This document shows, piece by piece, positions 57,106 through 61,560 of a DNA stretch of 64,000 nucleotides. The translations under genes and the position numbers were made by a program. Source of the stretch: a virus; the IMG/VR virus record IMGVR_UViG_3300035670_000102, positions 28,966 through 92,965 of that record. One strand, given 5' to 3'. Numbering within the stretch: the first letter of the stretch is position 1; the number at the start of each line of letters is the position of its first letter. The notes below the pieces were generated by a model. That model was given only the letters and a program-made list of their open reading frames with translations, was not told the DNA's origin and ran no database searches.

Positions 57106-58077
57106 ATGGATTTGATTGACTCCAAGTATATTGGACTCGTTTCGTCACGCTTACAGAAATTTAAAAGAGTTAAGGCAGATCTTTACAATTTCCGGTGTCC
57201 TTTGTGTGGAGACTCTCAAAAAAATAAAAGTAAGGCTAGGGGATACTTATATGCTGTTAAAAACAACACAAACTTTAAGTGTCATAACTGTGGGGCAAGT
57301 TTGTCTTTTAATAATTTTCTTAAACAACTAGACCCATCTCTCCATAAGCAATATACTATGGAGAAGTTTAAAGAGGGTCATACTGGAAAAAATTTTGTTG
57401 TTGAGGAACCTAAGTTTGAATTTACAAAACCAATCTTTAAAAAAAGGGTAGATCTACCTAAAGCATCAGAAATTACGATTGCTAGAGAGTATCTTCAAAA
57501 ACGAAAACTTGACCCAGAAAAGTTTTATTTTGCTGACAAATTTAAGGAGTGGACAAACACACAAAAAGAAACTTTTAGCACTATTGGTAGGGATGAAAGC
57601 CGCATTATTATACCATTGTATGATATAGAATCTAATTTAATAGGGTTTCAGGGAAGATCACTTGGACCCTCACCAAATAAATACATCACCGTGATGCTTT
57701 CCAATGAATCTCCTAAACTTTATGGACTTGAAAAGGTGGATTCTTCAAAAACCATTTACATTGTTGAAGGACCCTTCGACTCAACGCTTATTGAAAATGC
57801 TGTTGCTATGTGTGGGTCCGATATTGATATTAGATCGTTTGGTTGGGGAGATTATATTTGGGTTTTTGATAATGAACCACGCAATAGAGAAATCGTCAAA
57901 CGAATATCAAAAACCATCGATAGAGGCGACAAGGTGATTATTTGGCCAATCAATGTCCATCAAAAAGATATTAATGATATGGTTTTAGCTGGACTTAATG
58001 TTATGGATGTGTTAAAATCAAACACATACTCAGGTTTAGAAGCAAAAATTAAGTTTAACAATTGGAAGAAAGTATGA
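57106..58077 (+). CDS. gp61: DNA primase gp61
   Basis: Primase of the T4-type primosome, acting with gp41 to make RNA primers. Zinc-binding pairs CPLC near residues 31-34 and CHNC near 59-62 form the N-terminal finger. The Toprim-type core has FQGRSLGPSPNKYI near 183-196, IYIVEGPFDSTLI near 217-229 and VFDNEPRNREIV near 255-266. Length is 323 residues against 342 in T4. The stop overlaps the nrdA ATG. Placement before nrdA, away from gp41, is usual for marine relatives. Confidence 0.92.
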   Translation: MDLIDSKYIGLVSSRLQKFKRVKADLYNFRCPLCGDSQKNKSKARGYLYAVKNNTNFKCHNCGASLSFNNFLKQLDPSLHKQYTMEKFKEGHTGKNFVVEEPKFEFTKPIFKKRVDLPKASEITIAREYLQKRKLDPEKFYFADKFKEWTNTQKETFSTIGRDESRIIIPLYDIESNLIGFQGRSLGPSPNKYITVMLSNESPKLYGLEKVDSSKTIYIVEGPFDSTLIENAVAMCGSDIDIRSFGWGDYIWVFDNEPRNREIVKRISKTIDRGDKVIIWPINVHQKDINDMVLAGLNVMDVLKSNTYSGLEAKIKFNNWKKV

Positions 58078-59741
58078 GCAACGGAACAAAAGTCGTCAAA
58101 AGAGATGGTCAAACTGAACCTCTTGATCTTAACAAACTCCACGTTATGGTGGAAGAATCCTGTAAAGATTTAGCAGGTGTGTCAGCATCTCAAGTAGAGA
58201 TGCAATCTGGTATTCAATTTTACAACGGTATTGCTACTGCAGAGATTCAGGAAATTTTAATTCGCTCTGCTTCTGACCTGATTGATTTGGATCACCCCAA
58301 TTATCAATTCGTCGCTGCTCGCCTGCTTCTATTTTCTCTCCGCAAGCAGTTGTTTGGTCGTATGCACGAATCCCCTACAGTCAAGCAACACATTCTTAGT
58401 GCCGTTGAGAAAGGCGTCTATGATGCAGAAATTCTTGACTTGTATACTGACGAAGAGTTTGATAAACTTGAATCATTTATTGATCATAGTCGTGACTACT
58501 TGTTCACCTATGCTGGGCTTAGACAAGTGGTGGATAAGTATCTTGTGCAAGATAGAAGCACTGGTAAACTTTATGAAACGCCACAGTTCATGTATCTTTT
58601 GATTGCGGCGACTATCTTTTCAAAGTATCCTAAAGAAACCCGTCTAGATTACGTTAAGAAGTATTATGACGCAATCTCAAAGCACAAAATCAACATTCCT
58701 ACGCCAATCATGGCAGGTGTTAGAACCCCACTTCGTCAATATGCAAGTTGCGTTCTTGTTGATGTTGATGACACCCTTGATAGCATCTTCAGCTCTGATA
58801 TGGCAATTGGTCGCTATGTTGCTCAAAGAGCAGGAATTGGTATCAACGCAGGTCGCATCAGGGGCATCAACGCTAAAATCAGAGGCGGAGAAGTTCAGCA
58901 TACGGGTGTTGTCCCATTCCTCAAGAAGTTTGAGGCAACTGTCAGGTGTTGTACACAAAACGGGATTCGTGGTGGAAGTGCTACTGTCCACTTTCCAATC
59001 TGGCACCAAGAAATAGAAGATATTCTTGTCTTAAAGAATAATAAAGGAACTGAAGATAATCGTGTTCGTAAATTAGACTACTCTATCCAAATCTCCAAAC
59101 TCTTCTATGAACGATTCATCCGTAACGAAGAAATCTCACTCTTCTCTCCCCACGCTGTTCCTGGTCTGTATGATGCTTTTGGCACTGATGGATTTGACGA
59201 GTTATATCTTCGTTATGAACGAGATGAATCTATTCCAAGAAAAACTATCGGCGCTCAAGAACTCTTTCTGGACCTCCTGAAAGAACGTGCTGAAACTGGT
59301 CGTATCTACATTATGAATATTGACCATTGCAACTCCCACTCTTCCTTTATCGATAAGGTTGAGATGAGTAATCTTTGTGTTGCTGGTGATACTTTGATTT
59401 CAATTAGACACAATTTAAATGATTATTCTGACGAATCAATTTCTAGGGACACCATTGATAAAACAACTGTTATTGAAATTAAAGATCTTGAAAAATTTAG
59501 TAATAACTTATTTGTCAATGATATAAAAGTTCTTTCTTATAACACTGAAACTGGTAAAGAAGAGTGGGCACCTATTACAGCATTTACCCAAACTTCACCA
59601 AAAGCAAAAGTAATGAAAATTACTGATGAAGAAAGTGGTAAGAGTATTGTTGTGACACCAGAGCATAAAGTATTCACCAAAAATCGTGGATATGTGATGG
59701 CAAAAGATTTGGTTGAAACTGATGAATTGGTAATTAATTAA
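58074..59741 (+). CDS. nrdA: Ribonucleotide reductase large subunit, N-terminal part fused to intein N half
   Basis: Class Ia ribonucleotide reductase, first fragment: 434 residues of N-extein plus 121 residues of split-intein N half. I start at the ATG at 58074 overlapping the gp61 stop. The extein carries the ATP-cone (KRDGQTEPLDLNKLHVMVEE), the redox Cys in QYASCVLVDVDDT (E. coli C225 equivalent) and ends DKVEMSNL. The intein begins CVAGDTLISI (block A, Cys1), contains IVVTPEHKVF (block B, TxxH) and ends DLVETDELVIN before TAA. It must associate with the C half encoded at 60466 and splice to give active enzyme. The stop is genuine: no in-frame continuation exists. Confidence 0.92.
   Translation: MSNGTKVVKRDGQTEPLDLNKLHVMVEESCKDLAGVSASQVEMQSGIQFYNGIATAEIQEILIRSASDLIDLDHPNYQFVAARLLLFSLRKQLFGRMHESPTVKQHILSAVEKGVYDAEILDLYTDEEFDKLESFIDHSRDYLFTYAGLRQVVDKYLVQDRSTGKLYETPQFMYLLIAATIFSKYPKETRLDYVKKYYDAISKHKINIPTPIMAGVRTPLRQYASCVLVDVDDTLDSIFSSDMAIGRYVAQRAGIGINAGRIRGINAKIRGGEVQHTGVVPFLKKFEATVRCCTQNGIRGGSATVHFPIWHQEIEDILVLKNNKGTEDNRVRKLDYSIQISKLFYERFIRNEEISLFSPHAVPGLYDAFGTDGFDELYLRYERDESIPRKTIGAQELFLDLLKERAETGRIYIMNIDHCNSHSSFIDKVEMSNLCVAGDTLISIRHNLNDYSDESISRDTIDKTTVIEIKDLEKFSNNLFVNDIKVLSYNTETGKEEWAPITAFTQTSPKAKVMKITDEESGKSIVVTPEHKVFTKNRGYVMAKDLVETDELVIN
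59378..59741 (+). other. Split-intein N-terminal half
   Basis: Coding segment for the 121-residue IntN within nrdA-N, from Cys1 (CVAGDTLIS) to the stop. Block A and block B motifs are intact. The middle carries VLSYNTETGKEEWAPITAFT, a typical intein strand pair. The RGYVMAKDLVETDEL ending is the usual split site region. The insertion separates SNL from CQE of the reductase. Confidence 0.88.
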
Positions 59742-60472: not shown

Positions 60473-61560
60473 AGATTGAATATCTTGAAGAAGAAATCCC
60501 AGTTTATGATATTACTGTAGAAGGAACTCATAATTTCTTTGCAAATGATATTCTAGTTCATAATTGTCAGGAAATTACTCTACCAACCAAACCCATTCAG
60601 CATATTGACGATCCTGATGGTGAAATTGCTCTTTGCATCCTTTCTGCTATTAACGTTGGTAAATTGAAATCCAATGATGAATTGGAGAGTCTCTGTGACC
60701 TTACAGTTAGGAGTCTTGACGAACTTATCGATTTTCAGGGATATCCCGTCAGAGCAGCAGAAATAGCCACTAGAGCACGTCGTTCTCTTGGGGTAGGTTA
60801 TATTGGTCTGGCACATTATCTCGCCAAGCACGGCGAACATTACGACGATCCAGGTGCCTGGAAACTAGTGCATGACCTCACTGAGGCATTTCAATATTAT
60901 CTGATTCATGCAACTGTCAATCTTGCAAAAGAGAAAGGTGCTTGTGAATACTCTCACAGAACTAAGTATGGACAAGGTATTCTCCCTATTGATACATACA
61001 AAAAGGACGTTGATGAAATAGTTCCAAATGAGCTTAAGTATGATTGGGAGAGTCTTAGACAGCAAGTACTTCAATATGGAGTGCGGAACTCAACATTGTC
61101 CGCACAGATGCCATCGGAGAGCAGTTCCGTTGTGTCAAATGCCACAAATGGAATTGAACCACCTCGCGGATACTTGTCCGTTAAAAAATCGAAGAAAGGT
61201 CCACTTAAGCAGATTGTTCCCCAGTATCAAACATTTAAGAACAATTATACGCTTTTGTGGGATATGCCTAGCAATCGCGGTTATATTCATATTGTTGCAG
61301 TTATGCAAAAATTCTTTGATCAAGCGATTTCTGGAAACTGGTCATATAATCCAGAAAATTATCCGGATAATGAAGTTCCTACTTCAGTGATGGCACAGGA
61401 CTTATTAACTACATATAAGTACGGTTGGAAAACCAGTTATTATCAAAATACATATGATGCAAAGACTGATGAAGTGGAAGATTCCAAACCATCTCTTACT
61501 GATTTAGTCAATGATATTTTAAGCACGGAGGAAGAAGATTGTGAGTCTTGTAAGATTTAA
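60466..61560 (+). CDS. nrdA: Ribonucleotide reductase large subunit, intein C half fused to C-terminal part
   Basis: Second fragment of the split reductase: 33 residues of intein C half, then 331 residues of C-extein. The intein half has block F [15 protein letters not shown] near residues 13-27 and block G ILVHN, with penultimate His and terminal Asn, followed by Cys+1. The extein begins [10 protein letters not shown], restoring the N-x-C-x-E active site where this Cys is the thiyl-radical residue (E. coli C439). The second redox Cys is in [10 protein letters not shown] (C462), the radical-path Tyr-Tyr region follows, and the C-terminus CESCKI is the thioredoxin-interacting pair. A good AGGAGA ribosome binding site precedes the ATG inside the endonuclease gene. 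Confidence 0.93.
   Translation: [364 protein letters not shown]

Follow-up and report, generated by a model that had tools for sequence, protein, structure and literature searches.

What becomes of a ribonucleotide reductase whose large-subunit gene is cut in two at the catalytic cysteine? The question is raised by nrdA in a 64,000-nucleotide stretch of virus DNA (hereafter the window), the 3' 64 kb of the linear, 92,965-base IMG/VR virus record IMGVR_UViG_3300035670_000102. We read the locus as a fractured nrdA with a trans-splicing split intein and a homing endonuclease in a T4-like cyanophage, and give this reading, which is drawn from sequence comparison, a probability of about 0.88. NrdA is encoded in two separate open reading frames (ORFs), 58074-59741 (NrdA-N::IntN) and 60466-61560 (IntC::NrdA-C), which are made up of the following parts.

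58074-59375, + strand: NrdA N-extein, 434 amino acids, with the ATP cone, the all-alpha domain and the first part of the barrel, ending in EMSNL
59376-59741, + strand: IntN, the N-terminal intein half, 121 amino acids and a stop (CVAGDTLIS...DELVIN), with Cys1 and block B TPEH
60466-60564, + strand: IntC, the C-terminal intein half, 33 amino acids, ending in VHN; its ATG overlaps the end of an endonuclease gene by 7 nucleotides
60565-61560, + strand: NrdA C-extein, 331 amino acids, starting with the +1 Cys that corresponds to E. coli C439 (CQEITLP)

The break falls between residues 438 and 439 (E. coli numbering). An earlier note, made from the letters of the DNA, had proposed a split intein within NrdA, and this was borne out by profile searches: the halves match complementary positions of the Pfam Intein_splicing profile, 17-93 (E=9.8e-7) and 125-155 (E=2.9e-7), either half by itself being under the curated cut-off, and IntN matches the NrdJ-1 split intein (PDB 8ubs) with E=6e-17. 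The splicing motifs are complete (block A Cys1, block B TxxH, block F, block G His-Asn and the +1 Cys); across relatives Cys1, the TxxH, and the His and Asn of these blocks do not vary, nor do T94 and H97 of IntN. When an AlphaFold model of a contiguous relative, L047 (predicted local distance difference test score 88), was compared with the PDB, NrdJ-1 8ubs came first (E=1.7e-10) and other inteins after it; this test of the HINT fold was made on the contiguous homologue in place of the window's own halves. The earlier note had also taken the junction cysteine to be both E. coli C439 and the +1 nucleophile, and the HMMER alignment agrees, residues 33-346 of the C half aligning with E. coli R1 438-751, which places the +1 Cys at C439. 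Counted from the ORFs, the two exteins give a predicted spliced NrdA of 765 amino acids, the length that had been calculated. When an uninterrupted nrdA was searched for, PF02867 was matched only by these two fragments in the 92,965-base record, which is probably an incomplete fragment of the phage genome. It is reasonable to suppose that neither NrdA fragment is active alone. In the mechanism that we propose, the two ORFs would be translated as separate polypeptides, IntN and IntC would associate and trans-splice, joining L438 to C439, and the +1 nucleophile of splicing would become the thiyl-radical cysteine of an NrdA that presumably partners NrdB. As a side observation, residues 15-46 of IntN (window 59418-59513) are hypervariable in sequence and length, with up to about 17 extra residues, whereas IntN residues 47-121 and IntC are highly conserved.

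The NrdA pieces might instead act as a non-covalent complex whose intein halves no longer splice. Phage Aeh1 offers the model for this: its nrdA is likewise broken by a homing endonuclease gene, mobE, into nrdA-a and nrdA-b, no intein is present, and the protein can still assemble non-covalently, with full activity in the absence of splicing (PMC2988022). Among relatives of this locus, too, nrdA can be broken without an intein, the pieces carrying unrelated terminal extensions (L050). Here, however, the median rate of nonsynonymous change (dN) in IntC is 0.00 against a synonymous rate (dS) of 0.32 over 65 loci, and this, like the invariance of the splicing residues, is as expected under selection for splicing; in such a complex the catalytic Cys would moreover bear a 33-residue N-terminal extension. 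We consider this account very improbable. Less probable again is that nrdA is decaying, a dead gene broken by a selfish element. Endonuclease- and intein-interrupted nrdA does look degenerate in some Campylobacter phages (PMC3653736), but both extein ORFs are open and in sum full length, their dN/dS against relatives is about 0.1, and nrdB is intact downstream; a pseudogene reading of nrdA was ruled out by the conserved splicing residues together with the open frames. An assembly or sequencing artefact, which a single linear 93-kb metagenomic record might bring to mind, is scarcely credible given that the order IntN, leader, GIY-YIG gene, IntC recurs in dozens of independent contigs with differing exteins, and that the isolate KP13-7, a Klebsiella phage, has that order too, with a related endonuclease.

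The intein halves had been presented as adjacent, which they are not: a 59-nucleotide leader and a gene for a 223-residue GIY-YIG endonuclease intervene. The endonuclease makes the locus a mobile element; it had been left out of the earlier note, which also lacked the late promoter and the hairpin and did not say that close relatives have an empty site.

59801-60472, + strand: GIY-YIG homing endonuclease, 223 amino acids (PF01541, E=1.8e-12; PHROG 'homing endonuclease'; I-TevI catalytic domain, PDB 1mk0, E=5e-6)
60455-60459, + strand: AGGAG, Shine-Dalgarno-like, within the 3' end of the endonuclease gene and 6 nucleotides before the IntC ATG

The GIY-YIG motif region is strongly conserved in 47 distinct stop-free proteins, and the close relatives of the endonuclease that were found all lie within this intein. 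AGGAG, or a closely similar GGAGA run, is retained before the IntC ATG in nearly all relatives; with a ribosome site of its own, IntC::NrdA-C can therefore, as far as these motifs indicate, be translated independently of the endonuclease. The enzyme would cut an intein-less nrdA at the site, and repair would then copy the whole 1189-bp cassette in. The comparison of relatives is consistent with such homing. Against the window, dS in L002-L005 is 1.45-1.53 for the N-extein and 1.35 for the C-extein, versus 0.03 for IntN, 0.02 for the endonuclease and 0.00 for IntC; in L007 and L008 the exteins stand at 0.77 and 0.81 and the cassette parts at 0.01, 0.02 and 0.00. Over L002-L008 as a whole the three cassette parts have dS of 0-0.03 (except for IntC of L006) against 0.8-1.5 for the exteins. 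The cassette is thus 99% identical (dS about 0.02) in phages whose nrdA exteins differ at dS of about 1.4, and in the alignment of L002, L005, L007 and L008 identity drops from 98-100% within it to 75-83% just beyond the 3' junction; given more broadly, the fall there is from 99-100% to about 69-83%. Since near-identical cassettes sit in phages with diverged exteins, the cassette is mobile, of the homing type, and spreads independently of the host gene; it is inserted precisely, at a site empty in relatives. On an extein tree of 108 rows, at least 17 changes between empty and occupied are needed, 12 of them forced by well-supported branches. At a GC content of 0.26-0.31, the cassette is markedly richer in AT than the exteins, which have 0.40-0.41.

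The insertion site has been seen in at least six states among relatives, which were gathered from public scans and selected by similarity, so that they give no frequency of states. Most cyanophages have the empty state with zero extra bases, and the matches in the 50 phage records listed, annotated or deposited, stop at the junction; searched against annotated phages, the intein half had no cyanophage match and only distant matches elsewhere. Contiguous in-frame mini-inteins of 152-175 residues occur in L047, L056, L061, L079 and L135, and one of 161 residues in L169. The fractured state with a GIY-YIG gene is represented by 41 distinct extein sequences in the extein tree, and L062 is fractured with a decayed endonuclease. 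L073 is a 'naked' split intein without endonuclease, in which the 5' hairpin arm is fused straight to the tail of the endonuclease gene (GATTAATTAATTTATAGGAAGTGTAATTTCTA followed directly by AGGAGAGAACAAAATG); because of this scar, L073 evidently arose from a fractured gene through deletion. Finally, L115 (4041-5021), a close relative, carries a LAGLIDADG intein of 327 residues at exactly the same point of nrdA, and two unrelated kinds of element therefore compete for the site. In the intein tree contiguous and fractured forms are interspersed, and the pairs L047/L053 and L042/L075 are sisters in both the intein and the extein tree, from which it appears that the two forms interconvert or recombine; with the labels so interspersed, the tree does not resolve the direction between contiguous and split. 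In L169 the linker, CAAAAGAAAAAAGTTTTAAAG, is similar to the CAAAATAGGAGAAAAAAATGTTAAAG with which the endonuclease gene ends, and this hints at a re-fused split intein.

A second break, apparently inteinless, lies 13 residues after C439 in L050 (3249-4400) and also in L057, L075, L014 and L015. In L050 the first piece ends in a conserved 35-residue tail (VKVKKDKVEDYKKYVQNTGGVLYDH), followed by a GIY-YIG-like ORF and then by a second piece with a new N-terminal extension. Such breaks were found in genes that also bear a contiguous mini-intein, and they resemble Aeh1 nrdA-a/nrdA-b. Searches of Rfam matched no group I intron, either in the window or in those relatives that have second insertions.

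How the endonuclease is expressed is suggested by the 59-nucleotide leader, which contains the following elements.

59746-59762, + strand: 5' arm of the control hairpin (fold -18.5 kcal/mol, z -5.1)
59770-59777, + strand: TATAAATA, a T4-type late-promoter sequence in the hairpin loop, kept in nearly all of more than 60 fractured loci; putative in function
59783-59799, + strand: 3' arm of the hairpin, of which 59783-59796 is the conserved 14-mer GAGATTACACTTCC, a copy of the nrdA target at +7 to +20

The hairpin has 16-17 base pairs, and its fold energy compares with -6.5 kcal/mol for shuffles. The arms and the promoter are almost unchanged in more than 60 loci (some contigs being counted twice). 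In a first leader alignment covariation was not above shuffles because the rows were too alike; it rose above them only when the divergent L062, L064 and KP13-7 were added. In the set that holds the most divergent leaders, pairing is kept in 96% of cells, versus 39-50% in slid controls, and the double compensatory changes are equalled by at most 4 of 500 shuffles, these changes resting on few events (L062, L064, L080 and KP13-7, of which L062 is a decayed cassette). T4 I-TevI, I-TevII, I-TevIII and SegB and Aeh1 mobE are described as controlled by a hairpin that folds over the endonuclease start in the read-through RNA and that the late RNA does not form (PMC2988022). By the same logic the hairpin of a read-through transcript would cover the endonuclease start here, while IntC::NrdA-C would use its own ribosome site; a late promoter in the loop would give a short RNA lacking the 5' arm and so free translation of the endonuclease late, if timing follows T4. 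Expression would in this way be arranged so that the endonuclease leaves nrdA undisturbed. The placing of a late promoter with a hairpin over the endonuclease start is shared with the T4 and Aeh1 control regions; the differences are that the element lies inside a split intein and not in an intron or intergenic region, that its arm lacks a clear Shine-Dalgarno sequence, and that the operator is putative. The control may thus resemble the I-TevI type without being identical to it.

The 3' arm has a second property. Compared with uninterrupted nrdA, GAGATTACACTTCC matches +7 to +20 from the insertion point in constant register, with 14 of 14 positions in 7 of the 61 empty genes and at least 12 in 32 of the 61; the 61 target sites are homologous and count as one event, not 61. 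No stretch of the gene, on either strand, matches better than this site in 55 of the 61 genes, and 32 of the 34 matches of at least 12 positions in 536 kb lie at the target site. In T4 the I-TevI operator resembles the homing site at 15 of 20 positions and overlaps a late promoter (PMC2988022). Since the 3' arm copies target sequence, autorepression is suggested by analogy: the enzyme might also bind the DNA of the hairpin arm and repress itself as I-TevI does, a hypothesis. On the fullest form of this idea, the leader would consist of two inverted copies of a target half-site round the late promoter, acting as RNA hairpin silencer and as DNA operator, and the nrdA site would cycle through empty, contiguous, fractured, decayed and naked states. 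We hold this only tentatively, at rather less than even odds.

Several points weigh against our main reading of the locus. The 3' arm reads ATTACAYTTCCTATAATG, with no obvious Shine-Dalgarno sequence, unlike T4 I-TevI, so that the element hidden by the hairpin is less clear; TATAAATA is frequent by chance in the AT-rich window, 11 copies being found against 7.5 expected; and the record is incomplete. A somewhat better than even chance falls to a plainer account of the control region, in which the hairpin is an RNA element only, no operator exists, and the likeness to the target is due to chance or is a fossil of the original insertion. It is favoured by KP13-7, whose leader matches the site of its closest relative at 10 of 14 positions, no better than shuffles (2352 of 3000 were as good), and whose arm has no significant match to RaK2 and phiKp_21, its nearest empty relatives; the leader of Yersinia phage TG1, with an HNH-type enzyme, likewise has no target match. 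What chance or a fossil accounts for less easily is the arm of the window, which agrees with the cyanophage target consensus at 13 of 14 positions, a score reached by only 5 of 3000 dinucleotide-shuffled leaders, and for which the site is so often the best match in the whole gene. The KP13-7 arm, GAAATCACACTACC, differs from GAGATTACACTTCC at three positions, all third codon positions of E-I-T-L-P, and matches the site of 121Q, chosen after the fact, at 13 of 14 positions in the same register (0 of 3000 shuffles). As a separate observation, all 11 copies of TATAAATA are on the + (coding) strand, for example at window 945, 18986, 24892, 34807, 55231 and 62872, and several stand 23-45 nucleotides before an ORF start, as expected of late promoters.

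The origin of natural split inteins is an open question, for which fractured genes have been proposed as a missing link. Dassa et al. reportedly described genes fractured in this way in 2009 (Nucleic Acids Res 37:2560), with split inteins and with endonucleases encoded as free-standing genes. Their loci from Global Ocean Sampling data numbered 7 in nrdA and 2 in nrdJ, as quoted in PMC3653736. The locus in the window is a fractured gene of the Dassa type and not a new class, and the likeness to metagenomic fractured genes drawn in the earlier note holds: in both cases a split intein divides a conserved enzyme gene and an endonuclease gene separates the two parts, the origin is phage, and NrdA is one of the host proteins. 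What is present here in addition is a long contig context, a GIY-YIG enzyme, empty and intermediate states, hairpin covariation and the target-like arm; judged from sequences, the new evidence concerns the mobility of the cassette, the series of site states, a hairpin with compensatory changes and a 3' arm that copies the target. The split inteins NrdJ-1 and gp41-1 (PDB 8ubs and 6qaz) share the HINT fold, NrdJ-1 being the closest solved structure in sequence and fold, but their hosts are class II NrdJ and gp41, and identity is about 30% over the fold alignment. What gives the locus its value is the series of states and the control element, which is testable: in related viruses one can follow directly how the arrangement spreads, decays and is switched on and off, and one site displays the proposed states together, among them a split intein whose endonuclease was removed by a deletion that is still visible. 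If the cycle of the site is true, it would show in one locus how split inteins arise through endonuclease invasion and loss. For protein engineering the set is also a source of natural split inteins, numerous and closely related, whose C-halves are very conserved.

Isolates provide related cases. Yersinia phage vB_YenM_TG1 (L161, KP202158.1 137532-141179) has an unannotated split intein at 438/439 with an endonuclease between the halves; its enzyme is of the HNH type, and its hairpin, though unrelated, holds TATAAATA in its loop, while its 3' arm contains AGGAG. The design of hairpin plus late promoter has therefore been reached more than once, and TG1 is a cultured phage in which the model is testable. 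In Klebsiella phage KP13-7 (L160, OP617745.1 30877-36407) a split intein with a GIY-YIG gene between its halves and a hairpin with an AT-rich, promoter-like loop are likewise found, but the intein lies one codon after the C439 site and two further breaks are present. Its nrdA is in four pieces, mostly annotated as hypothetical proteins; one further break holds an HNH gene at KSCSQG with no evident intein, the other a second split intein (IntC MKIVKIEKNGIKPTWDIEVPDGNEYVLPNGIVSHN, then TSSQ) with another endonuclease-like ORF.

The cassette stands in the gene order primase, nrdA-N::IntN, GIY-YIG endonuclease, IntC::nrdA-C, nrdB, with these neighbours.

57106-58077, + strand: DNA primase (T4 gp61-like), the upstream neighbour, shared by cyanophage isolates
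61583-62725, + strand: nrdB, small subunit of the class Ia reductase with this NrdA, intact (domain and family matches)

The record has T4-type gene content (polymerase, UvsX, clamp loader, SbcCD, tail sheath and scaffold), and the closest nrdA is that of Synechococcus phage S-SRM01, 92% over the N-extein, which has the primase neighbour in common. This gene content and nearest nrdA mark the source virus as a T4-like cyanophage. Elsewhere, matches to the intein half were seen in two bacterial metagenome-assembled genomes (Bacteroidia and Cloacimonadota; L344, JALRKL010000069.1, and L345, JAMOPB010000330.1), that of L344 at a contig end adjoining ordinary bacterial genes. At window 13849-13971 a weak GIY-YIG match with internal stops, below the cut-off (E=5e-4), is possibly the remnant of a further endonuclease.

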